Positions 264-54,693 of a stretch of DNA of 64,000 nucleotides are shown in pieces. This stretch comes from Blautia faecicola (GTDB taxonomy: Bacteria > Bacillota > Clostridia > Lachnospirales > Lachnospiraceae). A program made the translations under genes and the position numbers. The DNA is taken from assembly GCF_004123145.1 (NCBI RefSeq), contig NZ_SDKC01000002.1, positions 1 through 64,000 on the forward strand. Direction: 5' to 3'. Position 1 is the stretch's first letter; each line of letters starts with the position of its first letter. The notes beneath the pieces are model-generated. The model made no database searches and was not told the origin of the DNA. It saw nothing but the letters and a program-made list of their open reading frames with translations.

Positions 264-272
264 GGCATACTT
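264..272 (+). promoter_or_regulatory. GGCATACTT promoter-like motif before the surface-protein gene
   Basis: TGGCATACTT lies about 52 bases before the TTG start of the surface protein. It belongs to the element-wide motif family described in the findings. The 40 bases upstream (TTATATATGAA, then AAAACC) closely match those of the copy at 39379-39387. Promoter function is inferred from position and recurrence. Confidence 0.5.
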
Positions 273-324
273 ATTGTGTAACAAAAGAAAACCAACTGAA
301 TTTTTAAATTGGGAGGACAATATT

Positions 325-3300
325 TTGAAGAATGTATCCAAATTAGCAATCGCAACTGTCGTTGCGGGAACAACCATGGCAGCAGGTGCCAATGTTACCG
401 TCCATGCAGAAGAATTAGTCGTACCGGCAGCAGAAACAGATGCTGTAGCACAGGCACAAGAACCGGTGACAAAAGAAGAAGCCAAAGACCAGCTGGATTC
501 CGCAGTTAAGACGGAACAGAACGCAGCTCAGAAAACAGATGCTGCCAAAGACCAGTATGACTCCGCAAAAGCAGACCAGGACCAGAAACAGGATGCTGTA
601 AATAAGGCGGAACAGGATAAAAATAATGCGCAGAACAATGCCCAGAATGCTTTCGACCAGGCAAAGAACGATGCCCAGAATGCTGTAAATAAAGCAGAAC
701 AGGACAAAAACCAGGCTGCACAGGATAAAGTAAATGCCGATAATAATGTTTCTTCCGCTGAAAAGGATCTGGCTGATAAGGAAAAAGCCGAAGAAGAAGC
801 AAAAAAAGATGCTGATAATATCACAACTGACGAGACGGATGAAAGCGTCCAGGATAAAAAAGACGAATTTGATAAAGCAGAATCTGAAAAGAACGATGCT
901 GCTACAGAAGATAACAAGGCACAGGATAAAGTAGACAACGCTCAAAATGGTGTGACCGGTGCCCAGCAGAACAAAGCGGATGCCGATAAAGCCGAGGAAA
1001 ATGCCAAAACAGATGTAGACAATGCAAAAGCCGACGCCGACAATGCCCAGAATAAAGCTGATGCGGCAAAGAAAGAATATGAAGATGCCGTCAGTGAAGC
1101 AAATAAGGATTCTGCTTACAACACCGCTAAAAAGGAAGCGGATGCAGCAGCAGAAGCTGTTAAGAACCAGCAGGTTATTGTAGATCGTGCAAATGCTGAT
1201 ATGCTTTCAAAAAAAGATGCCCTGGATGCTGCCCAGAAAGCATTGGCTCAGGCAAGAGTTGATAAAGCACAGGCAGATGTAGATGCACAGCAGAAGATCG
1301 TTGATGAAGCACAGGCGGCATACGATGCTGCGGACAGATCCCTGCAGGAAGCTACCCTTGCATTGAACGACAAGATCGCCGAAAGAGATACTGCAAAGGC
1401 AAAAGCGGATGCAGCATATGAAGCTTTCATGAAAGCAAAGACCGAAAAAGACTCCATTGAGTCTGCTATCAAAGATAAATCTACCGAAGAAATGGGAGCT
1501 GAAATCGAGCAGAACAAAACCCAGCAGGAGATGAACCAGGCAAAAGATGATCTGCACGCTGCAGAACAGGCACAGGAAGAGGCAAAGGCGGAAAAAGATA
1601 AAGCGGATGCCAACACACAACAGAAAAAAAATGAACTGGACGCCGCAAAAAAAGAACTGGATGATTTTAAAGCTACTGTATCTGCAGCCGGTTCCAAAGG
1701 TTTCTTTGAAAGCCTCGGATTCACAAAAGATATCTTCTCACAGGGTGAGGCAGCAGGATCTACCCAGATGGGAAATGCAAAGGATGCCACAAACCTTGAT
1801 AACATGCTGAAATCCCTGGATTTCATCGACAAATGCAATGAGATCCGTAGAAACGAGGGTCTTAATGAGATGAAAGTTTCCCTGACTCTGATGGCCTACG
1901 CTCAGTATAACGCCAACGGATCTGCCTATACCTTTGATCACTTAAGATACTGGGGATGCAGTGAGAACCTGGTATGGGGAACTACAAATCCGGATGTTGC
2001 TTTTGAATCCTGGTATACAGACGAGAAAAAACTGTACGAACAGGACAAAAATAATGCCTGGCAATGTCTGCATTACTTATCCATCGTTAATCCGAACAAT
2101 GTGATCACCGGTATCGGTCTTAGCAGATACAATGCTGAATGTGTCAGCCAGACTTTCCTTACCAAAGAAGAAGCTGGCGTTACCTATTATACAACAGCAG
2201 AACTTCGAGAACTGATCTTACGTTATTTAAGCGGAGGAGATTTAAAAGATGCTTACGAAAAAGCACAGGAGATCTACGAACAGGCTGCCGCTTCTTCCGA
2301 TGCAGCTGGTATGGCCTACAGCAATGCTGTTTTGAATACACTGAAGCTCCAGGCCGCATATGATCAGAAAGTAAAAGCAAATGAGAATGCCGTACAGAAA
2401 GTAGAAAACCTTCGTAACGAACTGAAAGATCTTACAAAGCAGAAAAAGCAGGCTGAGGATGCCATGGAAAGCAATCAGGAGATCTTGACTCTTGAAAGAA
2501 ATAATCAGAAGCTTGCAGAAGATGCCATCGAAAAACTCGAAAATACGGTTTCTTCTGCAACCGCTGCAGCTGATAGTACAAAGGCAACTCTTGATTCTCA
2601 GACAAAAACCTTGGATTCTTTGAAAGCAGAACTGAAAAAATTACAGGATGCCCAGAAGGACAACACGGCTGAAAAAGCAAGAAGAGCCGTAGGAACAAGC
2701 ACTCCTGCAGATGCCGCGCAGAAACTGGAAGAAGCTATCGCTGAGGCATTAAAGGCTGGTGATGCATATGATGAAGCTGTAAAACTGCTGGCAAAAGAAC
2801 AGGCTACATTGAATGCTCTGACTCAGGTAGCAGACGAAAAACAGGCCATTGTTGACCAGCTGAACGAACAGATCGCACAGCTGCGTAAGGATATGGAAGA
2901 GAAGAAATCTGATGCTGAAATGAAGAAAGCCATCCTTTCTGAAAAGGAACAGGCACTTGCCGATGCACAGGCGGAAGCTATCAAAAAAGCACAGGCACTT
3001 GCCGATGCACAGGCTGCCCTGGAATCTGCGAAAGAACAGAAGGCAAAAACTGCTGAAATTCTGAATGAAAAGACAAAAAAAGCAGACCAGGCACAAGCAG
3101 TATACGATGCTGCTAAGGCTTCTCTGGATGCTTATAATGCAGCGCAGGATGCTTTAAGGACTGCACAGGCTGATACAGTAGTGGCTAGAAACGCACTGAA
3201 AGTAGCAAGAGAACTTGCTGATGAAAAGGCGCAGGCGGTTACAGATACAAAAAAAGCACACGAAAAGGCATTAGAACGGCTGAAAAGAGCCAATACTCTT

Positions 3301-3789
3301 TCACTGGAGTCTGCAATGAAGGCTGAAATCACGGATGAAGAATACAAGTACCTCAATGCTTATGTGACAAAGATTGAGACTACCAAACAGGCTTATGCAA
3401 AAGCCATGGAAGAACTGGATGCTGCAAAAGCTGTTACTGCAAAAGCAAAAGCATCTTATGATAAAGAGGCTGTCAAACATGCGGAAACCATTGCTGATCT
3501 TACGATTGCAAAAGCAAACTACCAGAAATTTGTAGATGCTGAGAAGAAAGCGGAAACTGAGAAAGCAAAAGCTGATAAGACAACTGCTGTCGCCACTCCA
3601 ACTGCTACTGGATCTTCCGTCAACGCAACAAGTACTGCTGCTGCTACATCGACCATTACAAACGTAGCCTCCAACGCTGTTAAGACCGGTGATCCGTCCC
3701 AGGCAGGACTTATGATGAGTCTTCTGGCAGGTTCCTTTGGTACATTAGGTGTGTTGAGAAGAAGACGTAAAAACAACCAGAAGAAATAA
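325..3789 (+). CDS. Cell-wall-anchored coiled-coil surface protein with CAP domain
   Basis: A 1154-residue secreted surface protein. I chose the TTG at 325 because GGGAGG lies 8 bases upstream and a signal peptide follows at once (basic KNVSK, hydrophobic stretch, cleavage near VHAEE); the open frame further upstream looks non-coding. Residues about 40-470 and 640-1080 are Ala/Lys/Glu/Asp/Gln-rich coiled coil. Between them, at about 495-625, is a CAP/SCP-like domain with FDHLRYWGCSENLVWG and HYLSIVNPNN. The C-terminus has VKTGD, a hydrophobic segment and RRRRK, a variant sorting signal for sortase attachment. An alternating coiled-coil stalk with a CAP domain suggests an adhesin or mating-aggregation role, but the function is inferred. 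The gene stands alone, with its own motif promoter and a terminator at 3822-3850. Confidence 0.88.
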   Translation: MKNVSKLAIATVVAGTTMAAGANVTVHAEELVVPAAETDAVAQAQEPVTKEEAKDQLDSAVKTEQNAAQKTDAAKDQYDSAKADQDQKQDAVNKAEQDKNNAQNNAQNAFDQAKNDAQNAVNKAEQDKNQAAQDKVNADNNVSSAEKDLADKEKAEEEAKKDADNITTDETDESVQDKKDEFDKAESEKNDAATEDNKAQDKVDNAQNGVTGAQQNKADADKAEENAKTDVDNAKADADNAQNKADAAKKEYEDAVSEANKDSAYNTAKKEADAAAEAVKNQQVIVDRANADMLSKKDALDAAQKALAQARVDKAQADVDAQQKIVDEAQAAYDAADRSLQEATLALNDKIAERDTAKAKADAAYEAFMKAKTEKDSIESAIKDKSTEEMGAEIEQNKTQQEMNQAKDDLHAAEQAQEEAKAEKDKADANTQQKKNELDAAKKELDDFKATVSAAGSKGFFESLGFTKDIFSQGEAAGSTQMGNAKDATNLDNMLKSLDFIDKCNEIRRNEGLNEMKVSLTLMAYAQYNANGSAYTFDHLRYWGCSENLVWGTTNPDVAFESWYTDEKKLYEQDKNNAWQCLHYLSIVNPNNVITGIGLSRYNAECVSQTFLTKEEAGVTYYTTAELRELILRYLSGGDLKDAYEKAQEIYEQAAASSDAAGMAYSNAVLNTLKLQAAYDQKVKANENAVQKVENLRNELKDLTKQKKQAEDAMESNQEILTLERNNQKLAEDAIEKLENTVSSATAAADSTKATLDSQTKTLDSLKAELKKLQDAQKDNTAEKARRAVGTSTPADAAQKLEEAIAEALKAGDAYDEAVKLLAKEQATLNALTQVADEKQAIVDQLNEQIAQLRKDMEEKKSDAEMKKAILSEKEQALADAQAEAIKKAQALADAQAALESAKEQKAKTAEILNEKTKKADQAQAVYDAAKASLDAYNAAQDALRTAQADTVVARNALKVARELADEKAQAVTDTKKAHEKALERLKRANTLSLESAMKAEITDEEYKYLNAYVTKIETTKQAYAKAMEELDAAKAVTAKAKASYDKEAVKHAETIADLTIAKANYQKFVDAEKKAETEKAKADKTTAVATPTATGSSVNATSTAAATSTITNVASNAVKTGDPSQAGLMMSLLAGSFGTLGVLRRRRKNNQKK

Positions 3790-3821
3790 CAGATATTATC
3801 TGTTTTTCTCATACATTCTTC

Positions 3822-6954: not shown

Positions 6955-9339
6955 ATGATACTTTTTAAGACACACAGCGAACATGAACTGAGAAGGATCA
7001 GAAAAACATTAAATGAAATAGAAAAACTGCGTCCAGCCATGCTAAAACTGACCGATAAACAGTTGCAGGATAAAACGAAAGAATTTAAAAAGCGGTTAAC
7101 TAAAGAAACACTGGAAGATCTCCTTCCGGAAGCTTTTGCAGTGATCCGGGAAGCCGACCGCCGCGTACTGGGTATGGAACCTTTTCCGGTACAGCTCATG
7201 GGCGGCATCATAATGAGCCAGGGAAGAGTTGCTGAAATGTGCACTGGAGAGGGAAAAACCCTTGTATGTACGCTTCCCTGTTATCTGCATGCTCTGGAAG
7301 GAAAAGGAGTCCATGTTGTCACCGTCAATGATTATCTTTCCCAAAGGGACTGTGAACTGATGCGACCTGCCTATGAATTTATGGGACTCACCTGTGGAAG
7401 CATTGTCCAAGATACCGATCCAGCACAGAGAAAAGAAGAATATTCCAAGGATATTACCTATATAACAAATAACGAACTGGGATTTGATTACCTGCGTGAT
7501 AATATGGCAAAACGCAAAACACTTCTTGTCCAAAGAGGACTTCATTTCTGTATTATTGACGAGGTGGATTCCGTTCTGATTGATGAAGCAAGAACTCCGC
7601 TGATTATTTCTGGAAATAAACAGATGTCTCCCGGAAAATACCTGGCTTTTGACAAAGCTGCGAAGCAGTTGGAAGTCGGAAAAACACAAGAAATGTCCAA
7701 GATTGACTACATTGCAGGTGAAGCTGCAAAAGAGACAGGTGACTTTATCCTGGAAGAGAAGGATAATAATTTATTTTTAACGGAGCAGGGAACGAAAAAG
7801 GCAGAAAAATTCTTTGGCATCAAGAATCTGTCCGATCCGGAAAATATCAGCATTCAGCATGGCATGGATATGGCTCTTCGCGCAAACTATCTGATGCATA
7901 AAGATAAAGATTACGTGGTACGTGATGATGAGGTATGGATTGTAGACAGTTTTACCGGACGTATCATGCCTGGAAGAAGATTCTCTGACGGACTCCATCA
8001 GGCCCTGGAAGCAAAGGAAAATGTTACCATCCATCCGGAAAACCGTACTTTAGCTACTATCAGTTTTCAGAATTTTTTTAATAAATACGAAAAAAAGTGT
8101 GGAATGACAGGTACTGCGATCACGGAAGAGCAGGAATTCCGCGATATCTACTACATGGACGTTGTAACAGTGCCTACGAACCGTCCCATATTAAGAAGGG
8201 ATCTTCGGGACAGAGTATATAAGACAAAAGCTGAAAAATACGCTGCGATCATCAAGGCGGTATCCAGAGCACACCAAAAAGGACAACCTGTGCTGGTAGG
8301 CACAACAACCATAGATGTTTCTGAAACGTTATCTATGTTGCTATCCAAGCACGGACTACAGCACAATGTTCTGAATGCGAAAAACCCGGAACAGGAAGCT
8401 GCGATTGTCGCTGAAGCAGGCCATGTAGGGGCGATCACCATTGCTACCAATATGGCTGGAAGGGGAACAGATATTAAATTGGATGAAAAGGCAAGAGAGG
8501 CAGGTGGTCTCTTTGTGATCGGTACAGAACGTCACGAATCACGACGAATCGACAATCAGCTCCGTGGACGCGCCGGTAGACAGGGAGATCCTGGAAAATC
8601 CAGGTTTTTTATCTCTCTGGAAGATGATCTGATGCGTCTGTTTGGTTCGGAACGGTACATCTCTATTTTTGAAAAGGTCGGAATCAAAGACGGAATGCCT
8701 ATCGAACATAAAATGCTCTCTAAGGCAGTGGAAAAAGCACAGAAAAAAGTGGAAGAAAACCATTTTGCCTCCAGAAAACAGTTGCTTGAATACGATCAAG
8801 TGAATAATGACCAGCGGGAAATCATATACAAAGAGCGGGCCATGGTGTTGAAAGGGCAGGATGTACATGAAGAGATTACCGGCATGATCCGTACCGTAAT
8901 CGATAGAAAAATACAGGAGGCAAAAAAGGATGGTGCACTTTCCGTGGTTGAATTGAACCGGATACTGCTTCCGATCATTCCTGTTCCGTCCTTGTCAAAG
9001 AAAGATGTCCAGAAACGTGGATTCGAAAAAAAACTCTTCCAGGAAGCCATTGGCCTTTATGAGCAGAAGGAGAAACTGTTGGAACAAATGTATCCAGGAC
9101 AGCATATCATGCGCGAAGTGGAACGCAATATTTTATTGAGGATCGTGGATGCGAACTGGATGGAACAGATCGATGCAATGGAGCAATTGCGTCAAGGAAT
9201 CCACATGGTCAGCTATGGTCAAAAAGATCCCAAAGTAGAATACCGTGTTCGTGGGTTTCAGATGTTTGATCTGATGAACAAAAACATCCAGGAAGAGACA
9301 GTGAAACTTTTATATCAGGTAGATCCAGTCACCTCATAA
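6955..9339 (+). CDS. secA: SecA-type preprotein translocase ATPase lacking the C-terminal zinc domain
   Basis: A 794-residue SecA, the peripheral membrane ATPase that drives proteins through SecYEG. Visible features are Walker A TGEGKT (about residues 95-100), DEVDSVLIDEARTPLIISG (about 200-220), the preprotein cross-linking domain, and NMAGRGTDI with RGRAGRQGDPG in the second nucleotide-binding fold. It ends YQVDPVTS, so the usual C-terminal linker and Cys/His zinc tail of housekeeping SecA (SecB/ribosome binding) is absent. Length and absence of the tail fit an accessory SecA. The ATG at 6955 follows an in-frame TGA closely, but its ribosome site is poor. Next to surface and TasA-type cargo, it may secrete element proteins (inference); without the rest of the genome I cannot exclude that it is the main SecA. 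Confidence 0.92.
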   Translation: MILFKTHSEHELRRIRKTLNEIEKLRPAMLKLTDKQLQDKTKEFKKRLTKETLEDLLPEAFAVIREADRRVLGMEPFPVQLMGGIIMSQGRVAEMCTGEGKTLVCTLPCYLHALEGKGVHVVTVNDYLSQRDCELMRPAYEFMGLTCGSIVQDTDPAQRKEEYSKDITYITNNELGFDYLRDNMAKRKTLLVQRGLHFCIIDEVDSVLIDEARTPLIISGNKQMSPGKYLAFDKAAKQLEVGKTQEMSKIDYIAGEAAKETGDFILEEKDNNLFLTEQGTKKAEKFFGIKNLSDPENISIQHGMDMALRANYLMHKDKDYVVRDDEVWIVDSFTGRIMPGRRFSDGLHQALEAKENVTIHPENRTLATISFQNFFNKYEKKCGMTGTAITEEQEFRDIYYMDVVTVPTNRPILRRDLRDRVYKTKAEKYAAIIKAVSRAHQKGQPVLVGTTTIDVSETLSMLLSKHGLQHNVLNAKNPEQEAAIVAEAGHVGAITIATNMAGRGTDIKLDEKAREAGGLFVIGTERHESRRIDNQLRGRAGRQGDPGKSRFFISLEDDLMRLFGSERYISIFEKVGIKDGMPIEHKMLSKAVEKAQKKVEENHFASRKQLLEYDQVNNDQREIIYKERAMVLKGQDVHEEITGMIRTVIDRKIQEAKKDGALSVVELNRILLPIIPVPSLSKKDVQKRGFEKKLFQEAIGLYEQKEKLLEQMYPGQHIMREVERNILLRIVDANWMEQIDAMEQLRQGIHMVSYGQKDPKVEYRVRGFQMFDLMNKNIQEETVKLLYQVDPVTS

Positions 9340-17750: not shown

Positions 17751-17759
17751 AAGTATGCC
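17751..17759 (-). promoter_or_regulatory. GGCATACTT motif, small-gene cluster
   Basis: On the minus strand: A-tract (TTTAAAAAATT), then GTATGTTCTAAGTGTGA, GGCATACTTTAAATG and a leader ending in TTAAGGAGG. It is nearly the same as the copy at 20402-20410. Confidence 0.55.
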
Positions 17760-18948: not shown

Positions 18949-19383
18949 TTAATTAAACGGATATTCGTCATACAATCCATTCAGAAATGCTTCATCGGAC
19001 ATACCTGAAGGATCTGTATTCGAGGCCCCCGTAGCCGGTGTGGAATGAGTTGTCTCAGCTTCTTTCTTTTTGCTTTCAGCAAATTCAAAGCGTTCTACTT
19101 CAAATTCCGTCGTGTACACGGTCTGCCCTTCACGGTTTTTATAGCTACCCGTTCTTAAACTTGATGAAATCTCAAGTTTAATCCCTTGTTTGCAATATTT
19201 TTCTATAGTTTCTGCATTGCGTCCAAAGGCCACAAATCGTGGAAAATCCGCAGTTTGTTCACCATTTTTAAAAGTTCTTTGTACTGCAAGAGTAAATCTT
19301 GCAACACATATCGGCTTCTCACTGGTTGAATAACGGATTTCTGGGTCTCGTACTAACCGTCCTGTAAAATTACAACTGTTCAT
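18949..19383 (-). CDS. ssb: Single-stranded DNA-binding protein
   Basis: A 144-residue SSB with an N-terminal OB fold (NSCNFTGRLVRDPEIRYS, ARFTLAVQR, FVAFGRNAETIEKYCKQG, LEISSSLRTGSY), a short disordered linker and an acidic tip DEYPFN in place of the usual DDDIPF. It coats single-stranded DNA. On a conjugative element it probably protects the incoming strand. It ends a minus-strand operon with the DUF5688 gene (28-base gap) and has a clear terminator. Confidence 0.95.
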   Translation of the reverse strand: MNSCNFTGRLVRDPEIRYSTSEKPICVARFTLAVQRTFKNGEQTADFPRFVAFGRNAETIEKYCKQGIKLEISSSLRTGSYKNREGQTVYTTEFEVERFEFAESKKKEAETTHSTPATGASNTDPSGMSDEAFLNGLYDEYPFN

Positions 19384-19410: not shown

Positions 19411-20352
19411 TCAAACTCTTTCAGCTTTTCCGAAGGTATGATTTTTTGTATCAAAGTAATAGACATCATCGGTAAGACGTTCTGCGGGGGATACCTGAGT
19501 CGCATTGACTTCTGTGACCATCATCCTTAATTCATCTGCACTGATTTTTCCATTATCCGGAAGAACCAGCATTTCATGAATTGATGAAGGGAGAATAAAG
19601 TAGTCATGTCCAAGAACTTCACCCAGGTTATCCATCATCTTCGGATAGAAGAGAGCGCCGGCACCTCCGATTCTCTGCTGATTAGTCACTACAAAAAAGG
19701 ATGACATCTGAGCAGATTTTCTAATAGATTCCTGCAGCATTTCTCTTTCTTCCGACGTCATCATGAACAGATCCTTTTCGACCATTTCCTCCATCATTGC
19801 ACCCAAAGAAAATACTTCCGGTGCCATAATATGTGGAGAACTTTTCATAGCATCTTCGTGAAGCTGTTCTGCTGTAATGCCGTACTGTTTGAGTAAGTCA
19901 TTATTGATGAGCATGGAACCCAATCCTTTCTCATCCATGCTGACGTCTACATGATAAGTAATTGCAAGATCTTCCTTTAACTGATGTGGAACATTCACAA
20001 GCATATCTTTATTTCTCTCTGCCGATGATACACGGATAAACAGATTATCCTTTGCAATGTCATAATCCATGATGGATTTGAGATTCACCTGGATTGATGC
20101 CTCCATAATGACATCTGCAATTCTTCTGTATATGCTTTCCATAGTTGCTCCCGGCTGATTCTGATAGGCTTTGTAGAACTGATTCATATTGATAATCGGT
20201 GCGATTGTTTCGTCTTCCCTTTTCACCATAAGACCCTTATAGGTAGTATTTAATTTCCGATAATCCATAACGAATACCTCAGCATTCCTGTAAGATCCTG
20301 GCAAAAAGTGTTTGATATTGTCCTTTACCTCGTTTACAAATTCTAAAAACAT
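19411..20352 (-). CDS. DUF5688 family protein
   Basis: A 313-residue soluble protein with the DUF5688 pattern: MFLEFVNEVKDNIKHFLP near the N-terminus, PIINMNQFYKAYQ, an AxxVxxVP-like MLVNVPHQL segment, and a late block VTNQQRIGGAGALFYPKMM followed by ILPSSIHEMLVLPDNG. The family is frequent on Lachnospiraceae mobile elements and has no known function. AAAGGAGG lies 8 bases before ATG. The promoter-leader is the best preserved example of the GGCATACTT type. Co-transcribed with ssb. Confidence 0.8.
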   Translation of the reverse strand: MFLEFVNEVKDNIKHFLPGSYRNAEVFVMDYRKLNTTYKGLMVKREDETIAPIINMNQFYKAYQNQPGATMESIYRRIADVIMEASIQVNLKSIMDYDIAKDNLFIRVSSAERNKDMLVNVPHQLKEDLAITYHVDVSMDEKGLGSMLINNDLLKQYGITAEQLHEDAMKSSPHIMAPEVFSLGAMMEEMVEKDLFMMTSEEREMLQESIRKSAQMSSFFVVTNQQRIGGAGALFYPKMMDNLGEVLGHDYFILPSSIHEMLVLPDNGKISADELRMMVTEVNATQVSPAERLTDDVYYFDTKNHTFGKAERV

Positions 20353-20401: not shown

Positions 20402-20410
20402 AAGTATGCC
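20402..20410 (-). promoter_or_regulatory. GGCATACTT motif, DUF5688-ssb operon
   Basis: On the minus strand TTTAAAAAAATTTTG, then 16 bases, then GGCATACTTTAGATGTTAATC, lies 50 bases before the ATG. Confidence 0.55.
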
Positions 20411-21024: not shown

Positions 21025-22304
21025 TCGCTCTCCTCCTCTGGCATAAGGATCAGCTCTTCGTTGTCCTCATCATTGCCGCTCAATGTTATGAACGGTGCTC
21101 TACCCGTTGCCTTTGCGACAGGCTGGAGAAGGGATTTTGGCAAGCCCTCCAAACGATCCGCCAGTCCCATGATTAGAATCGCTACGTCGTATTCTGAGTA
21201 TATAGCGGCCTGATCAATTTCAGCATTCAGCTGCTCAAGCAGCTGGGCGAATCGTGTTTTTCCTATGATTTTTCTAATTCCAAGTTTAATGAGAGAGTCC
21301 CTTAATGCTTTCTCGACCAAATGGCCATTACCAATGAGCTGACCCATTTTCCGCGCCAACTCCTCTGGCAATTTACGAAAGTTGACCATGATCTCGCGAT
21401 CACAATCAGTCAGTATCTCTTCGCTTGTTATCGTTCCTATATGTTTTCGCGCGTACTCGTCTACAATCACATATCGATTACAACCTTTCAAACGATACGT
21501 TCCTCGAATAATAAAGCTGCTTTTTCCTGTGTCAGATGACATTAACACAATACCCGGTACAACCGTATCTTTTAATCCGGAAATATCAGAAAACTCCTCT
21601 CCAACTTCGGGAAATTCGATATGGATACTCGTGAAATCGTGGTCCACATACCATCTGTTGATTTCGCTCGAACCAAATTTCCCATCTTTCAAAAGAGCCT
21701 TAATGGCTCTTATGATCGTTCGCTGTGGAATCGGAATATATTTTTCCGATAGAAAAGCAAAGATCTTTCGGTCATACCTACCTTCCTCATTCAACATTTT
21801 TCGAGTGACAACCGTCACTCTTGGGTTGGTTTTTGTCAATGCCTCGCACATAGCTTGCGTGAGGAATATTGATTTTTTTGAAGATTGTTCTCCACAAATT
21901 CCAGACCTTGTCATTAAGCTACTGAGAGCTCCACCGGAGATGTAAGTGACATATCCGTTTAAATACGTCACATAACCTGCTGTGTCAAAGCTTTCTTCAC
22001 ATAACTGTTCATTTACATTTTGTTTGGATATGTACCCAATTGATGGTACTGGGTACATATTTGTTTCCGAAACTTTGAAGTTCAGCAAGCCCTGTTCGAA
22101 AGATAAAAGTTCTTTTTGAGTGATTAATAAAACCTTATATGCCTCCTTCATGAAGGAGGCATTAAGATAATATGCGAATCCGATGTTACCACCAGATATT
22201 CGTAAAAACTCGGTGCTGTCATCAATCTGCTTTAGAATATTTTCGAAATCTTCGAGTTCTTTTCCCTCAACAAAAAATTTGTCTGAAAGTGTTAATTTTC
22301 CCAT
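21021..22304 (-). CDS. Unknown 427-residue protein, possibly DUF932-like
   Basis: Soluble protein. The block VVPGIVLMSSDTGKSSFII followed by RLKGCNRYVIVDEYARKH recalls the conserved core of DUF932 phage/plasmid proteins (strand, SNSDTG-like turn, CNG segment); this is tentative. The N-terminal third has GGNIGFAYYLNASF and the C-terminus is acidic (GNDEDNEELILMPEEESE). It overlaps the preceding gene by 13 bases and the following one by four, so all three form a tight operon. Probably an element maintenance or host-takeover gene; unproven. Confidence 0.6.
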   Translation of the reverse strand: MGKLTLSDKFFVEGKELEDFENILKQIDDSTEFLRISGGNIGFAYYLNASFMKEAYKVLLITQKELLSFEQGLLNFKVSETNMYPVPSIGYISKQNVNEQLCEESFDTAGYVTYLNGYVTYISGGALSSLMTRSGICGEQSSKKSIFLTQAMCEALTKTNPRVTVVTRKMLNEEGRYDRKIFAFLSEKYIPIPQRTIIRAIKALLKDGKFGSSEINRWYVDHDFTSIHIEFPEVGEEFSDISGLKDTVVPGIVLMSSDTGKSSFIIRGTYRLKGCNRYVIVDEYARKHIGTITSEEILTDCDREIMVNFRKLPEELARKMGQLIGNGHLVEKALRDSLIKLGIRKIIGKTRFAQLLEQLNAEIDQAAIYSEYDVAILIMGLADRLEGLPKSLLQPVAKATGRAPFITLSGNDEDNEELILMPEEESE

Positions 22305-22543: not shown

Positions 22544-22591
22544 TTTTGCTTCCTCCTTTTGATTGACCTCCAGTTTTTCAATTAACAATTA

Positions 22592-32936: not shown

Positions 32937-33036
32937 AAAATCCCTCATTTCTTATGTAACAAAAACTTCTCTTGATCCCTGATAATCGTATGCATTATCA
33001 TCAGACATCCGTTACTTCCTGTTTAAAGCTTTATTC

Positions 33037-33456: not shown

Positions 33457-33482
33457 AGATACCTCCCTTTGTTTATATTACT

Positions 33483-33522
33483 ATATCATTAATTATTGTA
33501 AAAATCAACCATTTTTTACAAT
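33483..33522 (-). promoter_or_regulatory. Canonical promoter overlapped by a 10-bp inverted-repeat operator
   Basis: On the minus strand TTGATT and TATAGT lie 17 bases apart. ATTGTAAAAA (33513-33522) and TTTTTACAAT (33495-33504) are perfect arms around 8 bases, covering the -35 and spacer. A further ATTGTAA lies just upstream. Confidence 0.65.
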
Positions 33523-38360: not shown

Positions 38361-38548
38361 TGGAACTCTCACCGCTAATACCGTTACTGAAAACTTATAA
38401 AAAGTTATAAACTTCTATGTTTCATTCCTATTTCAACGAGCATGCTTTTGATGATATAAATATCAATCTACTCACAAGTTCTTGTACTCTCCATAGGCGT
38501 AAATTCCGGACTAACGTATCCGTACATATTTGCATTAACGTTTCAGTG

Positions 38549-39070
38549 TCAGCTTGCAAATTTTTCTCCATAAGTCTTGAGATTTATAGATGCCTGGAAA
38601 TCTCTGTCAATCATATTCCCACACGCACATCTATAAACTCTGTCAGATAACTTCAAATCTTTTTTGATGTTTCCACAACAGCTGCAAAGCTTTGATGATG
38701 GATAAAACCGATCAGCCACAATAAGCTGGATCCCTTTATCACTGCACTTATATTCAAGCTGTTTTCTAAACCCAAAAAACCCCTGTGCCTGGACTGCTTT
38801 GGATAAATGTCTGTTTTTCATCATTCCGCTGACATTCAGATCTTCCATACATATAAATCTTGGTTTTCGATTTACGATCTCCGATATGGTTTGATTTAAA
38901 TAATTTTTACGGATGTTTGTTAATCTGTGATTTCGTTTTAATAAAAGTTTTTCCTTTTTGATTACATTATTTGTTTTACAGTAACTTTCCCCTTTCTTAT
39001 TTTTCTCGTAAGAACGAGAGATACTACGCTGTAATCTGCGTTTCTGTTTTTCTAGTTTCTTTACTTTAAA
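38549..39070 (-). pseudogene. tnpB: Truncated TnpB (RNA-guided nuclease), C-terminal half
   Basis: The frame opens at about 39070 and reads KKLEKQKRRLQRSISRSYEK, later FICMEDLNVSGMMKNRHLSK (RuvC-II Glu), then the CSCCGNIKK...CACGN zinc finger and MIDRDFQASINL (RuvC-III Asp). The N-terminal half with the RuvC-I Asp is missing and no start codon is present. A clear pseudogene; an internal ATG at 38848 could give a 99-residue fragment. The downstream sequence looks like an omega-RNA end. Confidence 0.85.
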
Positions 39071-39330
39071 ACAACAACCTTTTCAACCTGATTTTGAGAT
39101 ATTCGCCTGATCAATTCCTGAAGTCCTTTTTTCTTATAATTAATCCCGGAACCGATATCACTTATTATCTCAAATGGCTGTCCTTTTGCCAGAAGATATG
39201 TCTTGACATGATCAATCTGTCGTTCCAGATCATCTTTCTGTTTATGGCTGGAAACGCGACAATATCCAATTGTAATGCGTTTTTCAGGCTTTACATTGAT
39301 TACCTGGTTGAGTTGCTCATCAGAATACAT
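39061..39330 (-). pseudogene. tnpA: Truncated IS607 TnpA serine recombinase
   Basis: 89 residues with ITIGYCRVSSHKQKDDLERQ (catalytic Ser region), then FEIISDIGSGINYKKKGLQE. The MerR-like N-terminal DNA-binding domain and the C-terminal part are missing; full proteins are about 200 residues. It runs directly into the tnpB fragment. Confidence 0.85.
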
Positions 39331-39378: not shown

Positions 39379-39387
39379 AAGTATGCC
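39379..39387 (-). promoter_or_regulatory. GGCATACTT motif upstream of the IS607 remnant
   Basis: On the minus strand TTATATATGAAACG, AAAACCGCC, then TTGGCATACTTATTAG. The upstream half matches the motif region of the surface-protein gene at 230-272. It probably once served the zinc-ribbon/HipA-like/acyltransferase operon before the insertion. Confidence 0.5.
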
Positions 39388-39454
39388 AATTGTTCAGGCG
39401 GTTTTCGTTTCATATATAAACAAACTGGAATTTTTGAACGAAAAAACTGAGCAG

Positions 39455-46301: not shown

Positions 46302-48728
46302 TTAGTTTTCTGCCGTCGTGTTGATCAGCTGATAGATCATAGAATCCCGCGGATAAACGTTATCAAACGGCAGACATGTCTTTCCGTTATAAATAAGACC
46401 ACATCCAGGTTCGGCATTATTCACATAATCCAGCTGCGCATCTGACATCTGCAAAAGTTCTCCTAACGTATCCCTGTCAAATTTTGCCAAAGACATCATC
46501 ATAATAAAAGAAGAGTTATTAATGATATTTCTGGAGTCCACACTTCTTAACAAGTCTTCTGTATTTTGCATGATGCCTGTTGGTACACCTTTCCATTTCC
46601 TTGCTCTCTTCCATATTTCCATAAGGAAAGAAGATGCACTCTTGGAACGCAGCAACAGATAGAATTCATCAATATAGAAGTGTGTCCAGACATTTCCTTT
46701 GCTTCCATTTTCGATCATCTTGTTCCAGATATCGTTCAAACATACGAAAAGTCCAAGATCTTTCATTCCGCCACCTAGATCCTTGATGTTATATGCAACA
46801 ATCGGTGCGTTTGTTTCTACATTAGAACGATGTGAAAATGTAGATAAGGATCCGGATGCATAGATCTCGATCACATCTGCAATGTTCTTTGCTTCCGGTT
46901 CTGGCTGATTTTGCAGCTCTTTATACAGATTCATAAGAGTTGGTGCTGCACTCTTGTCACAGGTGACAGGATTTCCAGAGGCACGAAGTTGTTCCATATG
47001 CTGCAGGTATCCGATGTAGATATTTTTTACACATCGGTCAATAATGGATTTTTCTTTTGGCTCAATCGTCCTTTCTCTTCCGTACATAATTTCAATCATA
47101 CTAATGATATAATTTGCTTTCATGGTCAGGGAATCGTTATCTCCTGCATAATTGATATCCATATCCAGCGGATTTACAAATTTCTTTGAATTCGTAGAAA
47201 GATCAATTACCTCTCCACCAAGTGCCTTAACCATTGGCGAATATTCATTTTCCGGATCGATGATAAAGATCTGATTATTTTTTCCTCTCAAGAGAACATT
47301 GTAGATCTCGGATTTCGCAGCCATACTTTTACCGGATCCAGACTCTCCAAAGATTAATCCATTGTAATTTCTTCCACTTAAACGGTTGTACATAATAACG
47401 CTTTTTGTGATTCGGTTCTGTCCATAATAGACACCGTTCTTCTGGAAGAGTTCCTGGGAACTGTATGGCAGAAAGATGGAGCTGGACTCTGTTGTTAACA
47501 TACGGTCTACATATAACTTATTGATACATAATGGCAACGTAGAGTTAAAACCAACTTCCTGCTGATAAAGCAAGGGACGAATTGGTGCATTATATTTTCT
47601 TGAGATACTCTTTACCAGTCTGGTAGCCTCTTCAAGCTGTTGTAAAGATTCACCAAAAACTACAACTGTAAAAGTCACATAATACAATCGCTGATCACGC
47701 GTTACCATATCTTCCATCAAGGTGGTCGTCTGTTCCTGAGATCGGTACAATTCCGGAGAAATAAGCTGTGTAGAATATCCCTCCTGACCTGCCTTCTTTT
47801 GTGCTTCAGATATCCTTGCATTTAAGGAAAGCATATGATCCCTTACCTTTTTTAACGCAGCTGCCTGTTCAATTGGATTATAATTCACAGAGATCATCAG
47901 ACTATGCGGAATATCCGTAAGGTCATTCATAAAATCGGTAGAAAGCCATGTAGGCACACGCTGCAGATATAGTGTCCTTGCAAAGGTTTCTCCTATTGTA
48001 AAATGATTTCCCTTAAAGCTCATACCGCATGGTGCAACTGCCTCTTTTGATGTTCCTCCCGTGTTATACATCTCCTGCAGATCAAATGTCGGATTTCCAT
48101 CTTTATCCACCGAATTCTCAAAAACAGTTGATCCGTCCTGATTATAAATACTTTGCAGATTGCGAAGCCTTTCTTCTAAAGACATGGGAACTGTCCGGCT
48201 TCCAGGAAGGATTCGACGAAGGGAAGCATCGATCTCGTTGTCAATACTATCCAAAACCTGCATCGCGTGTGATACGTGATCATCTTTTACAGACACTACA
48301 CACATTTTTTCCTGGGAAAGGTTGTTTCTTCCTTTAGCTACCCTGTCTAAAAGAATCGTATTCAACTCTTGCCGGTATTTGTTCAGGCCATCCTTTTGCG
48401 GTTCAAAACGGATTGTGTTTAAGAAAGTACGCCGGTCCGTAGGCTTGTTCCGGATAAAGATCTGAAATTGCGCATTTTCCGGAAAGGAATTCAAAAACAT
48501 TCCATAGGTACGGAATATTGCAAGCTGCTGTTCTTCCGGAGCAATTTTAAAATTGACGTCTTCTAACAGATAAGCCCGTGTGAAAGTGCCAGGTTCTGTT
48601 TCAATCACTCCATTGTCATATACCTGTTCATATGGAATGCTTTCCAGAACAGTTTTTGGAAGTTTGTTTTTTTTAACAAATCCAGAGAATTTTTTTAATA
48701 AACTATCTGATATATTTAAAGTACTCAT
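46302..48728 (-). CDS. VirB4/TraE-type T4SS ATPase
   Basis: An 808-residue ATPase that energises pilus/channel assembly. The N-terminal VirB4 region has PYEQVYDNGVIETEPGTF and YLLEDVNFKIAPEEQQLAIF. Walker A is GESGSGKSMAAKSE (about 458-471), Walker B NVWTHFYIDEFYLLL (about 690), and RKWKGVPTGIMQNTEDLL is the conserved motif after it. The length matches Gram-positive VirB4 proteins (TcpF/TraE type). GGAGA lies before the ATG. Downstream of PrgI by 13 bases. Confidence 0.95.
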   Translation of the reverse strand: MSTLNISDSLLKKFSGFVKKNKLPKTVLESIPYEQVYDNGVIETEPGTFTRAYLLEDVNFKIAPEEQQLAIFRTYGMFLNSFPENAQFQIFIRNKPTDRRTFLNTIRFEPQKDGLNKYRQELNTILLDRVAKGRNNLSQEKMCVVSVKDDHVSHAMQVLDSIDNEIDASLRRILPGSRTVPMSLEERLRNLQSIYNQDGSTVFENSVDKDGNPTFDLQEMYNTGGTSKEAVAPCGMSFKGNHFTIGETFARTLYLQRVPTWLSTDFMNDLTDIPHSLMISVNYNPIEQAAALKKVRDHMLSLNARISEAQKKAGQEGYSTQLISPELYRSQEQTTTLMEDMVTRDQRLYYVTFTVVVFGESLQQLEEATRLVKSISRKYNAPIRPLLYQQEVGFNSTLPLCINKLYVDRMLTTESSSIFLPYSSQELFQKNGVYYGQNRITKSVIMYNRLSGRNYNGLIFGESGSGKSMAAKSEIYNVLLRGKNNQIFIIDPENEYSPMVKALGGEVIDLSTNSKKFVNPLDMDINYAGDNDSLTMKANYIISMIEIMYGRERTIEPKEKSIIDRCVKNIYIGYLQHMEQLRASGNPVTCDKSAAPTLMNLYKELQNQPEPEAKNIADVIEIYASGSLSTFSHRSNVETNAPIVAYNIKDLGGGMKDLGLFVCLNDIWNKMIENGSKGNVWTHFYIDEFYLLLRSKSASSFLMEIWKRARKWKGVPTGIMQNTEDLLRSVDSRNIINNSSFIMMMSLAKFDRDTLGELLQMSDAQLDYVNNAEPGCGLIYNGKTCLPFDNVYPRDSMIYQLINTTAEN

Positions 48729-50334: not shown

Positions 50335-50685
50335 TTAACCTAACCAGCTAGCAAAGTCAATACCAAGGAATTTCGTTCCACCTAAAATTCCAAGGACTAC
50401 TGCGGTTGCCATCATCATCGCTGCTTTCTGCTGGGCAGGACCATCTTCATTTGCATGGCTGACTGCGAATTTAAGGATACCGATCAGACCAAAGATAACA
50501 CCAACAACCAGCGCAATCTTAGACGCAATCTGTACAATCCCGTTAATCATGGCAGCTCCATTATCTGCAAAAGCAAATGGTGCAACTGTATACATGCAGG
50601 TAAATACGCAGACCATTGCCATACATAACATACATGTTCGTTTTCTTGTTTCATAATTTGTAATCATTACATCTTTTTTGTTCAT
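50335..50685 (-). CDS. VirB2-like pilin/Maff2-type small membrane protein
   Basis: A 116-residue protein; ATG at 50685 with AAAGGAG 8 bases upstream. Signal-peptide-like helix (RTCMLCMAMVCVFTCMYTV ... FAFADNGAA) followed by two hydrophobic helices (IVQIASKIALVVGVIFGLI and AAMMMATAVVLGILGG), the layout of VirB2/TrbC pilins and of the Maff2 small proteins found in clostridial conjugation operons. It has its own GGCATACTT promoter and a downstream attenuator. Confidence 0.85.
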   Translation of the reverse strand: MNKKDVMITNYETRKRTCMLCMAMVCVFTCMYTVAPFAFADNGAAMINGIVQIASKIALVVGVIFGLIGILKFAVSHANEDGPAQQKAAMMMATAVVLGILGGTKFLGIDFASWLG

Positions 50686-50743: not shown

Positions 50744-50752
50744 AAGTATGCC
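50744..50752 (-). promoter_or_regulatory. GGCATACTT motif, pilin/T4SS operon
   Basis: On the minus strand TTTGAAAAAATCCG, then AAATCTTTAATGCTATGGCATACTTG (in pieces), lies 59 bases before the ATG of the VirB2-like gene. Confidence 0.55.
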
Positions 50753-50778: not shown

Positions 50779-53112
50779 TCAAACTGGAGTAACGGATGTG
50801 TACATTAATTCGTCCGGCCCCCAAACTTTATCATTCGCATCTAGCGTTTTTTCAACACTTCCTGCTGCTTCTTCTGCTGTCTGAAGGGGCAATGTCTGAT
50901 CCATTCCATCACCGTTCCCCTGAACATCTTGTGGTTTCCCAACCAATGGTTCTCCATTGACATCCATATTATTGCGATACTCTTCTGCTTTCTGCTGCTC
51001 TGCCTCATTTTTCGCTTCATACACCGCTTTATCCGGTTCTTTTTTATTCCCATGTTTTTCAGTGATAATCTCCTCGTTCAGTTTGTGTTCTGAAAGCAGG
51101 TCAGCCGCCTTCTGAGAATTGAAAATATAAGCACCACGTTCCTTATTTAATTTTTTTACCAGGGAACGTCTGGGATGCTTATCTGAAGCAAATTTTTTTC
51201 CCTTCAAGGCATTCAGCGACTTCGGTATTACAATGCACTCATCTTCAGGCATAGTTCTTAACTGCGATGGTGTATAAAGCTCTACACCCGTTCTGTTAAA
51301 TGACTGGCCTCCACCTCCTTTAGAGTAATTCACATTCATGACAACTCGGGTTTCTTTACCTAACAGCTTGCTGATCCACTCTGTCGTGACTGTATCCGCA
51401 CCACCACCAAGATAAACCGTATTATCACAGTTGCCCGTGATCGTCTCCCAGTCGTCTTTATACAGGTTTTTCATCTGGCTCAAAGACTGAACGATAATAT
51501 TAACAGAGATCTCATATTTACGGATGGTTGCTACTTTTTCTGAAAACTGTGGAATTTTTCCTGTGTTGGCGAACTCATCGAGAAGCATCCTTACATGGAT
51601 AGGAAGTCTTTGCCCGCTATTCGACTGTTCACTGTTACTGATCACTTTTCCTGCCCGTAACTTTTGCAGTGCTTTTTCTGCTTCCTCTTTCGTTCCCCGG
51701 TATCCTACTAGTTCATTTCTGTTCGTTCGTATCTCCCACCACTCATAATCCACATTTTTCCTTATGATGCCGTCTTTTGCTCTTTCAAAGAACGCTTCGG
51801 CTTCTTTCCGAACCCTTTTTACCTCCTCCGGGCTTCCTGCACGAAACGTTTTCCATATCTGTTTATCTTCATCCATGATACATTGGGAAAACTCAGCTGT
51901 ATTTTCACTGTAGCGATACAACCGTTGAAACAGCTGAGAATACATCATGGATGAAAGGAACTGGAAAGTAGTATCTCCAGTCGGGATGATAACAAATAAT
52001 GCGGTTTTTTCATCTCCGACAGAATCCAGATCCAGATCATCGGTATTAGTAAGAGCTGCTACCGGAGCAAGGTCAAACGCCTGCAGACGGACCGCACAGG
52101 AGATCAGGATACTTTTTAACGTCTTTCCAGCTCCCATCTTAAAAGTGCGATATTGCTTTGCAGCAAAAGAATCTGTATATCGTTCTTCAATATCTTCAAA
52201 CATTCGATCCAGCTGGCTCTTTGCGTTTGAATCATTTTCATCTACTTCTGCTGCTCTCAGCAACCGCATTACATTTGTAAAACATTGGCATTCTTTTTTT
52301 GTATAATGAAAAAGAAATGCAATCAGCGCAACCAGCAGAGCAGTTTCAGATTTTTCCCAGAACGGATCACCACCTTTTTGATCCGGCGGTGTTGTGTTCT
52401 TGATCAGCGTATTCACCAGGATCTCTATGTCCTGGTCATTTTCTATGTATTGGAATGGATTATAATGATTTCCCCTGTCCATATGATCCAGGTTAAAACA
52501 TTTCACGTTATATCCCATGTACTCCAAATAATGTCCATACTGCTTATACAAACCTCCCGAAGGATCCGTAACAACAAACGAGGAGTTTGCCTGCATGATA
52601 TTCGGACCCACATAGTTATAGGACTTACCTACACCAGACCCACCTACAACAAAGACATTTAGATTTCGTCTGGTAGCCTCATTATCCATAGCCAGTAGCA
52701 TATCTTGGGACAATATTACATTTGTAGGACCATTACTGGTCGGTTTTCCAATTGGATCCGTGAATTTTTTATTGTAATCGTCCATGGATTTCATCCACGC
52801 TGCATCACCCTGTACTTTATCAACGTTATAATGCGCTTTTCCCTTCTGTGTCACGTAGAACATAAAAATCAAAAGCCCACAAAGCAGGGTATATAGCAAT
52901 ATCTTTGAGAAAATATCATTTGGTAAAGGGAAGATAGTAAACGGTCTGGTAAACAGATCATCGAAAGACAGGTTCAATGCGTCTATGAATTCCAATTTGG
53001 GATTTTCTTCCATAACCAATGCCAAATGGATATACCATAGGATAACAAATAGATAACTGATAAACCCTACCACACTGGAAATCAATATTGTTTCTTTTTT
53101 CTTTTTGTTCAC
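50779..53112 (-). CDS. Type IV coupling protein (VirD4/TraG family)
   Basis: A 777-residue ATPase that links the DNA-relaxase complex to the channel. Two N-terminal transmembrane helices (about 8-32 and 68-88), Walker A VVGGSGVGKSYNYVGPN (about 155-171), ANSSFVVTDPSGGLY, Walker B RMLLDEFANTGKIP (about 505), and late MPEDECIVIPKSL are all typical of the family. GTG start with AGGTGG 6 bases upstream. The C-terminal 120 residues are acidic, perhaps for relaxosome contact. It directly follows the PcfB-like gene. Confidence 0.95.
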   Translation of the reverse strand: MNKKKKETILISSVVGFISYLFVILWYIHLALVMEENPKLEFIDALNLSFDDLFTRPFTIFPLPNDIFSKILLYTLLCGLLIFMFYVTQKGKAHYNVDKVQGDAAWMKSMDDYNKKFTDPIGKPTSNGPTNVILSQDMLLAMDNEATRRNLNVFVVGGSGVGKSYNYVGPNIMQANSSFVVTDPSGGLYKQYGHYLEYMGYNVKCFNLDHMDRGNHYNPFQYIENDQDIEILVNTLIKNTTPPDQKGGDPFWEKSETALLVALIAFLFHYTKKECQCFTNVMRLLRAAEVDENDSNAKSQLDRMFEDIEERYTDSFAAKQYRTFKMGAGKTLKSILISCAVRLQAFDLAPVAALTNTDDLDLDSVGDEKTALFVIIPTGDTTFQFLSSMMYSQLFQRLYRYSENTAEFSQCIMDEDKQIWKTFRAGSPEEVKRVRKEAEAFFERAKDGIIRKNVDYEWWEIRTNRNELVGYRGTKEEAEKALQKLRAGKVISNSEQSNSGQRLPIHVRMLLDEFANTGKIPQFSEKVATIRKYEISVNIIVQSLSQMKNLYKDDWETITGNCDNTVYLGGGADTVTTEWISKLLGKETRVVMNVNYSKGGGGQSFNRTGVELYTPSQLRTMPEDECIVIPKSLNALKGKKFASDKHPRRSLVKKLNKERGAYIFNSQKAADLLSEHKLNEEIITEKHGNKKEPDKAVYEAKNEAEQQKAEEYRNNMDVNGEPLVGKPQDVQGNGDGMDQTLPLQTAEEAAGSVEKTLDANDKVWGPDELMYTSVTPV

Positions 53113-53124
53113 AATGATCCACCT

Positions 53125-54552
53125 CTATTCTTTTTCTAAAGTGGATTTAGTACGTCCACGGTTCTTCTTTTCTTCCCGCTTTCTTGCTACTTCCATGCCC
53201 CGCTCTTTTTCTATTTTCTTCTCTACATCCGCAATTCGTTCTATGGAGGCTGATATGGTCACAGCTTCAATATCTCGTATCGCCAACAAAGACTGTTCAT
53301 ACATCTCTCCGTCCATCTGGTATTTTTTTAAAATATCCTGAAGTATCTTTCCATCAGACGGTTCGTATCCTTTCGGAATCCGTCCCAGAATAAAAGCCTT
53401 TAACAGCTCTTTCAAAGCTTCTATATAATGCAAGAATTTTTCATTTTGTCGTCCATCCATGTTCATGATCTGATCATTCTGGATTTTTCTCGTGACCATC
53501 TGATCCAACTGTTTGGACAGAAGTTTTTCTCCCCTTGCATAAGCGCGATACTGAGAACTTGGCGATACATCTAGAACATCCATATCTTCCCCTGTCTGAC
53601 GTTGAAAATGATGGATCACTTCTGTACTGTTATAAGTAACTATAGGAAATGGGATTCGGCTACTGTACGATATCAGAAGTTGTTTATAATCTGGCTGTGT
53701 AGTATCCGCCTGCTCATATGGTATAAATTGAATCTCATCCCCTCTCCTGACAGCTCTCCCATACGTAAAACCATTTGCAGTGATTGTTATATATTGACTT
53801 CCGTACCCGACGATCCACAAAGGAGTTTTGTTCAGATTTGTTTTTCCATCATAAAATCCCTTTGCTAATCGATCCTGCATTGCAATCTTTAATTCTGCAT
53901 ATGCCTCATTTTTTATCCTATTCGGTCCAGTACTGGCTAGAATCGTCTCTAGATAAACAGTACAAAGATCTGGTGCACTTCGAATATTTCTTTTGACTGC
54001 ATCTTTTGCAAGCAAAGTGATCATCATAGTTCCATCTTCCATCTGATCCAGCCCTATTTCCGCATGTTCAAAGTATTTGGCAAATCGATCCTTCATAAGC
54101 TGTGCCTGACCTGGTGTTAGTCCATACACTGCAATACAGCTTTTGTCTTGTTCCTTCGAAATTGCTACCTTTTTTATGATGTCTTCACCTGTTAGCACTC
54201 GGCAGAATTTTCCTTTTACCTGCAACATTTCTTTGCAGACCTGCATAGCTTGCTCTTCATCTTGCTTTCTTACTATAAAACCTGTTTTTCCATCGTTCGT
54301 TGCAGTCGGTGCATAAGGAATTTCGTATTCATATAATTCATCAGCAATATCCATAAATAAATCTTCCCTACAGGTAAAAGAAGCCATCGTGCCACCTGCT
54401 GCAATATGTTTTCCCATTGTTATCGCCAATGGAGAAGCCTGTTTTCCTTGTAAATAATCTGCAAGTTTTGTTAAAAACTGTTTTGTTTCTTTGTTTTTAG
54501 GCGCCATTCCAAACACCGTGTCAAACAATTCACTTGATGTTAAAAAAGCCAT
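53125..54552 (-). CDS. PcfB-like accessory protein of the coupling protein
   Basis: A 475-residue protein whose start (ATGGCTTTT) follows AAAGAGGTGAG. The N-terminal blocks ITMGKHIAAGGTMASFTCREDL, GKTGFIVRKQDEEQAMQVCKEM and IAVYGLTPGQAQLMKDRFAKY resemble the PcfB/DUF3801 pattern, in which a small protein helps the coupling ATPase. Here it is much longer, with a C-terminal helical, highly charged part (IERIADVEKKIEKERGMEVARK). The pairing with the coupling gene 12 bases downstream supports the role. Moderate confidence. Confidence 0.55.
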   Translation of the reverse strand: MAFLTSSELFDTVFGMAPKNKETKQFLTKLADYLQGKQASPLAITMGKHIAAGGTMASFTCREDLFMDIADELYEYEIPYAPTATNDGKTGFIVRKQDEEQAMQVCKEMLQVKGKFCRVLTGEDIIKKVAISKEQDKSCIAVYGLTPGQAQLMKDRFAKYFEHAEIGLDQMEDGTMMITLLAKDAVKRNIRSAPDLCTVYLETILASTGPNRIKNEAYAELKIAMQDRLAKGFYDGKTNLNKTPLWIVGYGSQYITITANGFTYGRAVRRGDEIQFIPYEQADTTQPDYKQLLISYSSRIPFPIVTYNSTEVIHHFQRQTGEDMDVLDVSPSSQYRAYARGEKLLSKQLDQMVTRKIQNDQIMNMDGRQNEKFLHYIEALKELLKAFILGRIPKGYEPSDGKILQDILKKYQMDGEMYEQSLLAIRDIEAVTISASIERIADVEKKIEKERGMEVARKREEKKNRGRTKSTLEKE

Positions 54553-54590
54553 ATCTCACCTCTTTAAAACCCAATCTATATTTCCGTTTT

Positions 54591-54599
54591 AAGTATGCC
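54591..54599 (-). promoter_or_regulatory. GGCATACTT motif, coupling-protein operon
   Basis: On the minus strand A/T tracts (TTTTTTTAAAAATC, TTTTTTCTTTTTTC) precede GAATGGCATACTTAAAAC, 39 bases before the ATG of the PcfB-like gene. It is divergent from the copy at 54685. Confidence 0.6.
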
Positions 54600-54684
54600 A
54601 TTCGACCTCTGAAAAAAGAAAAAATAGATTTTTAAAAAAAGTTTGAGGTAATAACAAAAAATCAATAGATTTCTTAGACACTCT

Positions 54685-54693
54685 GGCATACTT
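54685..54693 (+). promoter_or_regulatory. GGCATACTT motif facing a gene-free region
   Basis: AACAAAAAATC, then TAGACACTCTGGCATACTTTAAAT on the plus strand. The only nearby downstream ORF has seven codons including the stop, so it probably drives a non-coding transcript. Confidence 0.5.

Follow-up and report, generated by a model that had tools for sequence, protein, structure and literature searches.

A plasmid-restricted promoter-like motif and a predicted divergent sigma-70-family gene on contig C2 of Blautia faecicola

Replicon and motif sites

The stretch analysed, here called the window, is 64 kb long and covers bases 1-64000 of contig C2 (NZ_SDKC01000002.1; 129,504 bp) of Blautia faecicola, whose genome further comprises a chromosome, C1, of 3,589,629 bp and three small contigs. 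Its subjects are a nonamer, GGCATACTT, which recurs across C2 as a promoter-like motif, and a predicted divergent sigma factor gene at 31545-32936, which may encode its reader. Conjugation genes of C2, identified by family profile search, are a CD1110-type VirB4 and a CD1115-type VirD4. Also encoded are SSB proteins, a DnaG-type primase, a T2SSE-type ATPase, ParA, ParB and an actin-like protein. C2 is probably a plasmid, most simply a conjugative one; its best plasmid matches are from Butyrivibrio, and comparison of its two ends revealed no overlap. The gene set consists of 129 mechanical calls made in the present analysis, leaving 16.6% of C2 intergenic.

An earlier reading of the window from its letters alone (the sequence-only reading) had described GGCATACTT as an element-wide promoter-like motif. 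The copies it placed at 264, 17751, 20402, 30581, 39379, 50744, 54591 and 54685 are exact. The copy assigned to 31373 exists and is exact, but lies at 31363-31371; with it the window holds nine. The variant GGCAAACTT at 22592 is present and scores well; TGGCATAATA near 27791 is a weak match of 9.6 bits, within the chance range. The promoter-like sites of the window, with distances in nucleotides (nt) and open reading frames as ORFs, are as follows.

230-243 (+): upstream element GCTTATATATGAAT; GGC of site 264 lies 20 nt on
264-272 (+): exact motif; large gene 325-3789 with a TTG start 61 nt on
17751-17759 (-): exact motif; before a 30-aa ORF with AAGGAGG
20402-20410 (-): exact motif; DUF5688 gene 19411-20352 (Pfam), start 58 nt on
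22592-22600 (-): variant GGCAAACTT, 17.0 bits; gene 22292-22588 and those that follow
30581-30589 (-): exact motif; SSB-like gene 29492-30433, hairpin in the leader
31363-31371 (-): exact motif; CHC2 zinc-finger gene 30694-31323, start 48 nt on
39379-39387 (-): exact motif; 89-aa gene 39061-39330 with a resolvase N-terminal domain (PF00239), 57 nt on
39408-39421 (-): upstream element GCTTATATATGAAT with two mismatches, at site 39387
50744-50752 (-): exact motif; before gene 50335-50685
54591-54599 (-): exact motif; gene 53125-54552, start 47 nt on
54685-54693 (+): exact motif, divergent from the preceding site; before a candidate non-coding RNA with a paralogue at C2 111562

Gene 325-3789, on which no family search was run, is taken here to encode a surface protein, after its label in the sequence-only reading. 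Further genes would be reached through operons: the SSB gene 18949-19383 (Pfam SSB) together with the DUF5688 gene from the 20402 promoter, the type IV secretion system genes including VirB4 (46302-48728, CD1110 family) behind 50335-50685, and the VirD4 coupling-protein gene (50779-53112, CD1115 family) behind 53125-54552. The leader of the SSB-like gene, 30434-30575 (-), forms a long hairpin of -34 kcal/mol with a fold z-score of -3.1, which suggests leader-mediated control. The two candidate non-coding RNAs, at 54685 (+) and C2 111562 (-) (L003 7562, -), are 78% identical over 192 aligned nt and share no ORF; both begin at motif promoters, and each is divergent from another motif promoter.

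A promoter-like class restricted to C2

Exact GGCATACTT occurs 27 times in C2, 18 of these beyond the window, against 28 times in the 3.59-Mb chromosome, a per-base difference of about 27-fold; the reversed C2 sequence holds one copy. With up to one mismatch the window holds 25 copies against 12.0 expected, a number reached by none of 100 dinucleotide shuffles (maximum 23). Among C2 8-mers occurring at least eight times, GGCATACT has the top z-score (29 against 3.3 expected). Unprompted expectation-maximisation on 87 C2 upstream regions gave TGGCATACTT as the best solution at widths of 12, 20 and 40; roughly 40% of the regions contain it. The same motif was recovered de novo with a different gene call after removal of the final 12 nt before each start.

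All 27 exact copies are intergenic (p 9e-22 against the intergenic fraction). The count was 26 in the first gene call, in which site 264 seemed intragenic solely through a mechanical ORF opening at base 1; setting the start of that gene to the TTG at 325, which is backed by a ribosome-binding site (RBS), removes the overlap. Greater or equal frequency within coding regions, which the sequence-only reading had named as its own refutation, is thus not seen on C2. Orientation towards the following unit is likewise borne out: a same-strand start lies within 320 nt at 23 of the 27 sites (median 58 nt; 18 sites at 26-80 nt), against 11 of 27 when strands are flipped. The remaining four are 54685 and 111562, which precede the paralogous stretches lacking a common ORF; 116407, with the next called start 627 nt off; and 124308, which runs into the 3' end of a gene on the opposite strand. 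The position-weight search suggested in that reading was run on the whole of C2 with a threshold of 12.7 bits, set by the present authors at the weakest exact copy. It gave 34 sites, 33 of them intergenic; the one within a coding sequence (71166) was dropped from later counts, leaving a 33-site set. Weaker scores are swamped by chance (above 11 bits, 41 against 17 in reversed sequence; above 9 bits, 90 against 50).

On the chromosome, 26 of the 28 exact copies were examined. Each of them falls in a stop-free frame of at least 100 codons, a test that is coarse alone (10 of the 27 C2 copies also lie within some such frame). Of promoter features, 6 have T-15, 9 have A/T at -17 and 5 have a pyrimidine-purine (YR) step where a transcript would begin. 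Six 20-kb chromosome pieces scanned with the matrix show no excess (15 sites above 11 bits, 24 in reversed sequence). Upstream copies of the consensus are therefore absent from the chromosome as covered by these 26 exact copies and, for degenerate sites, by the six pieces. The GGCATACTT sites form a promoter-like class, restricted to the plasmid.

The register of an extended -10 element is W-17, T-15, G-14, G-13, C-12, A-11, T-10, A-9, C-8, T-7, T-6, set by placing the conserved G before CATACT at -14 in the customary numbering. Among the exact C2 sites, A/T is found at -17 in 27 of 27 and T at -15 in 21 of 27; 18 of 27 show a YR step at the predicted -1/+1, where nine alternative offsets give 3-12 of 27. 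These three features lie outside the searched nonamer and so give independent support for a promoter core. Upstream, T at -35 (22 of 27) and an A/T-rich stretch at -45 to -31 are the sole features present in most sites; the A/T tract reported earlier exists, with a modest enrichment (77%, intergenic DNA having 65%). No TTGACA box is seen at the C2 motif sites by eye, as previously reported.

Sigma-A reads extended -10 promoters of the form TGnTATAAT with no need of a -35 box. The motif resembles these in TG at -15/-14, A-11, T-7 and a dispensable -35, and differs from them at nearly all chosen sites in C-12 for T and C-8 for A, together with G-13; T-12 and A-8 in the hexamer, which define the sigma-A form, do not characterise the motif sites. 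C-12 is present in 31 of 33 sites and C-8 in 33 of 33, figures biased upward because the selecting matrix had C at 0.63 and 0.75 there. By these sequence features GGCATACTT appears to be the core of a plasmid-private, extended -10 promoter class with a predicted purine start at +1.

At six promoters (264, 39387, 72857, 84102, 94074, 115410) a second element, GCTTATATATGAAT, stands exactly 20 nt before the GGC. With up to two mismatches it has six copies in C2, five at such promoters and one in a coding sequence; the copy at the sixth promoter departs at three positions, and copies that loose are numerous elsewhere. GCTTATATATGAAT is a likely regulator-binding site for a sub-regulon under a second regulator.

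Genes regarded as cargo had been credited with ordinary promoters. Fair sigma-A-like boxes do precede the named ones: Fic (TAGACA-17-TATAAT), the KfrA-like gene (TTGGTT-18-TATAAT), abiF (TTGCAT-17-TATACT) and the 33.4-kb gene (TTGATT-17-TATAGT). The contrast with motif-bearing genes is, however, not significant: boxes scoring at least 9.5 occur in 9 of 51 motif-less and 2 of 29 motif-bearing regions (Mann-Whitney p 0.51).

Other features of the window are a homologue of SecA at 6955-9339 (+), which has every main SecA domain and lacks the motif, and a RAGATH-18 RNA (RF03064) at 38425-38497 (-). Three more RAGATH-18 RNAs are present at L002 2862-2934 (-), L002 15938-16010 (+) and L003 16003-16075 (+). 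Three of the four adjoin near-identical units, IS607-like with a TnpB-like gene by eye; the window copy lies elsewhere.

The sigma-like gene and rival readers of the motif

The gene proposed to encode the motif reader is absent from the sequence-only reading and is added here, with its upstream neighbours.

31545-32936 (-): predicted divergent sigma-70-family gene, 463 aa (NCBIfam, BLASTP, region-4 model); proposed motif reader
33037-33456 (-): 139-aa gene, 100 nt upstream of the sigma-like gene; no Pfam or NCBIfam matches
33480-33508 (-): sigma-A-like promoter TTGATT-17-tgaTATAGT before 33037-33456; 11.0 bits in the box scan, coordinates derived from offsets

The 463-aa protein matches TIGR02937 (NCBIfam) over residues 155-334 with E 7.3e-7, below the curated cut-off; its reversed and shuffled sequences give no matches to NCBIfam sigma families. 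BLASTP aligns it to the annotated sigma factor of the Butyrivibrio plasmid pCY360 with E 3e-5 and 21% identity, and a single-sequence model of region 4 shows a tentative resemblance to the sigma-4 fold. Genome searches with the gene returned nine weak non-self matches (3 + 6), and all four that were read are sigma factors; pattern scans found no close relatives of it or of VirB4. Two results weigh against membership of the sigma-70 family: a Pfam search with the protein gives no sigma match, and a hidden Markov model (HMM) built from four host sigma factors alone fails to detect it. Local sigma HMMs that gave a strong signal contained FliA sequences picked because they had previously been hit; with host sigmas alone the signal is lost, and that test was therefore withdrawn. 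The reversed and shuffled control in NCBIfam restores most of the support. Sequence searches of PDB and PHROGs gave nothing usable (in PHROGs one unnamed family, E 0.17), and a full-length single-sequence AlphaFold model was useless (pLDDT, the predicted local distance difference test, 37.6). With significant profile and member matches over regions 2 to 4, assignment of the protein to the sigma-70 family as a highly divergent member is well supported at the sequence level. Its region 2.4 departs from that of host sigma-A, with TYLEPRLRKALG in place of TYATWWIRQAIT.

Genes 33037-33456 and 31545-32936 are possibly one operon. The 100-nt leader between them contains no GGCATACTT motif. It includes a perfect palindrome, TGATAAT-N7-ATTATCA, at 32980-33000; as a signal this carries no weight, with one exact copy in the window and two with up to two mismatches, against 1.0 expected.

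On balance it is probable that a divergent plasmid-encoded sigma factor drives a plasmid-restricted backbone regulon through the GGCATACTT promoters. The link between motif and sigma is drawn from a plasmid-restricted promoter class of sigma type, one candidate sigma on the same plasmid and the divergence of region 2.4. In the proposed cascade host sigma-A would transcribe the operon at 33.4 kb, sigma gene included, from the promoter before 33037-33456; the sigma gene, having no motif of its own, probably depends on this host-type promoter as the start. The plasmid sigma would join host core RNA polymerase, and the holoenzyme would recognise the extended core with C-12 and C-8, using little -35 information. 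Switched on would be type IV secretion, the coupling protein, SSBs, primase, signal-peptidase and actin-like genes, surface proteins and small RNAs. The plasmid thus probably runs a private gene-expression programme. Sigma-A-like boxes also precede the Abi gene, the Fic gene and a small gene at 109103, with an IS200-type transposase domain, just before parA-parB; plasmid upkeep may accordingly not depend on the regulon.

Unlikely, though deserving weight, is transcription by host sigma-A from weak extended -10 promoters that depend on a plasmid-encoded activator binding the A/T stretch; the sigma-like gene would then be unrelated. The register (TG at -15/-14, T-35, weak -35) fits sigma-A, six promoters have a fixed upstream element, and C2 encodes an OmpR-type response regulator (122558-123388). 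Activator control, however, predicts a specific upstream site and a loose core, the reverse of what is found: C-12 and C-8 are kept nearly everywhere, the A/T stretch is little specific, and the upstream element is present at just 6 of 33 sites.

A sigma factor encoded on the chromosome, to which the plasmid has become specialised, is very unlikely as the reader. Host sigma genes are many (18 Sigma70_r2 matches, E up to 10), yet none of the 26 chromosomal copies examined is promoter-like, and it is improbable that a sigma factor of the chromosome would have no regulon there.

Hardly more can be said for GGCATACTT as chiefly the operator of a plasmid-wide repressor overlying -10 regions, which has a slightly smaller chance still. 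Global plasmid repressors are known, IncP KorA being an example that overlies -10 regions, and site 264 contains an imperfect palindrome, GTATGGCATAC; but the palindrome is lost at most other sites, and the conserved positions with their YR start step follow the pattern of a promoter core. Negligible in probability is chance or a dispersed repeat, as holds for 11 of the 13 pCY360 copies of GGCATACTT, since C2 flanks, a few related leaders excepted, are unlike at most sites and have in common the core, -17/-15 and the start.

Known systems, pCY360 and wider meaning

Among the open-literature matches listed, none describes the GGCATACTT motif or promoters shared across a whole plasmid of this kind. 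Group-5 extracytoplasmic function sigma factors of clostridia (UviA, BotR, TcdR) are element-linked and drive one or few neighbouring operons. The C2 sigma would share the linkage to an element and differ in serving some thirty promoters across the replicon. Closer is SigN (ZpdN) of Bacillus subtilis pBS32, described (PMC6751061) as a divergent plasmid sigma-70 with a largely plasmid-restricted regulon, a consensus derived with MEME and a cascade begun by sigma-A promoters; it is autoactivating, LexA-controlled and lethal, and pBS32 includes a prophage-like part. Its promoters, read by eye from Table 2 of that paper, combine a -35 resembling TTTACGTTT with a -10 resembling AGATAWAA; plasmid-encoded sigma factors are called rare there. 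C2 resembles pBS32 in a divergent sigma-70 gene on a large Bacillota plasmid, a largely plasmid-restricted regulon and a sigma-A promoter starting the cascade (regulon and promoter being predicted for C2). The C2 motif sites lack a -35 box such as SigN promoters have, and the 100-nt leader of the sigma-like gene has no motif for autoregulation; the likeness in a plasmid-borne sigma gene stands if sigma-70 membership holds. SigN is a precedent from which the C2 system would differ in a -10-only code, TGGCATACTT, for one with -35 and -10, in a sigma gene without the motif before its start for self-activation, and in a regulon of conjugative backbone genes for a plasmid in part prophage-like.

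Candidates for the same motif elsewhere were rejected. A same-genus contig (G002:C30, 40% VirB4) has no exact TGGCATACTT, and its TGGCATA copies are mostly in frames. Genomes rich in TGGCATACTT (G060, 12 of 14 copies viewed; G039, 7 of 11; G026, 1 of 11) show coding-type copies by eye, frames not being computed. Of five same-genus matches to motif plus RBS, four lie in stop-free frames of at least 156 codons and the fifth (G004:C177) is non-coding, without A/T-17 or a YR start. The Butyrivibrio proteoclasticus megaplasmid pCY360 (NC_014389.1) also fails as a carrier: the 11 copies already mentioned lie in one dispersed repeat (11 places), which includes GGCATACTT by coincidence, and the other two are in differing contexts. 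Plasmid pCY186 has one GGCATACTT copy.

A different motif was found on pCY360. De novo search with repeat-bearing regions dropped gave TtTgtgCAgAa; the same search on pCY186 gave a T-rich solution only. TGTGCAGAA has 53 copies in pCY360, none in the reversed sequence, none in C2 and two in pCY186. On pCY360 36 of the 53 are intergenic (intergenic fraction 18.5%), and 30 are followed on the same strand by a start no more than 300 nt away (median 82); with strands flipped the number is 13. The longer form of this motif reads TGTGCAGAAAAAT, and a TA-rich -10-like box follows about 33 nt later. The plasmid encodes VirB4, a type IV secretion-type ATPase, SSB proteins and a sigma factor, WP_013282908.1 (TIGR02937, E 1e-16). 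Among 397 genomes of the family that sigma has one further relative at E 1e-15 or better, with an internal stop; three plasmid records, pCY360 included, have any match to it. pCY360 and C2 are alike in a plasmid-borne sigma-70-family gene, the two mutually alignable, in a plasmid-wide upstream motif and in VirB4 and SSB genes. They are unlike in motif (TGTGCAGAA with a TA-rich box against GGCATACTT) and in their sigmas, which are 21% identical.

The proposed system would explain, in a form open to testing, the coordination of costly genes on a large plasmid. Sigma and promoter might serve as an orthogonal pair in the laboratory, and replicon-wide promoter motifs, sought first, may be a route to sigma factors missed by Pfam. 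If the proposal is true, transfer, replication-related and surface genes of a conjugative plasmid would be under one self-encoded divergent sigma with a readable code, and the second megaplasmid suggests that private codes vary among plasmids. A bolder reading, drawn from these two megaplasmids with distantly related sigmas and two unlike codes, is that large plasmids of the family each have their own sigma and a private promoter code, the codes of sister replicons in related hosts being mutually unreadable (TGGCATACTT against TGTGCAGAA-N24-TA..T). It is tentative and rather doubtful. Were it true, the plasmid backbone would form a transcription compartment of its own, shielded from host and rival plasmids alike, its code drifting by co-evolution of sigma and promoter.

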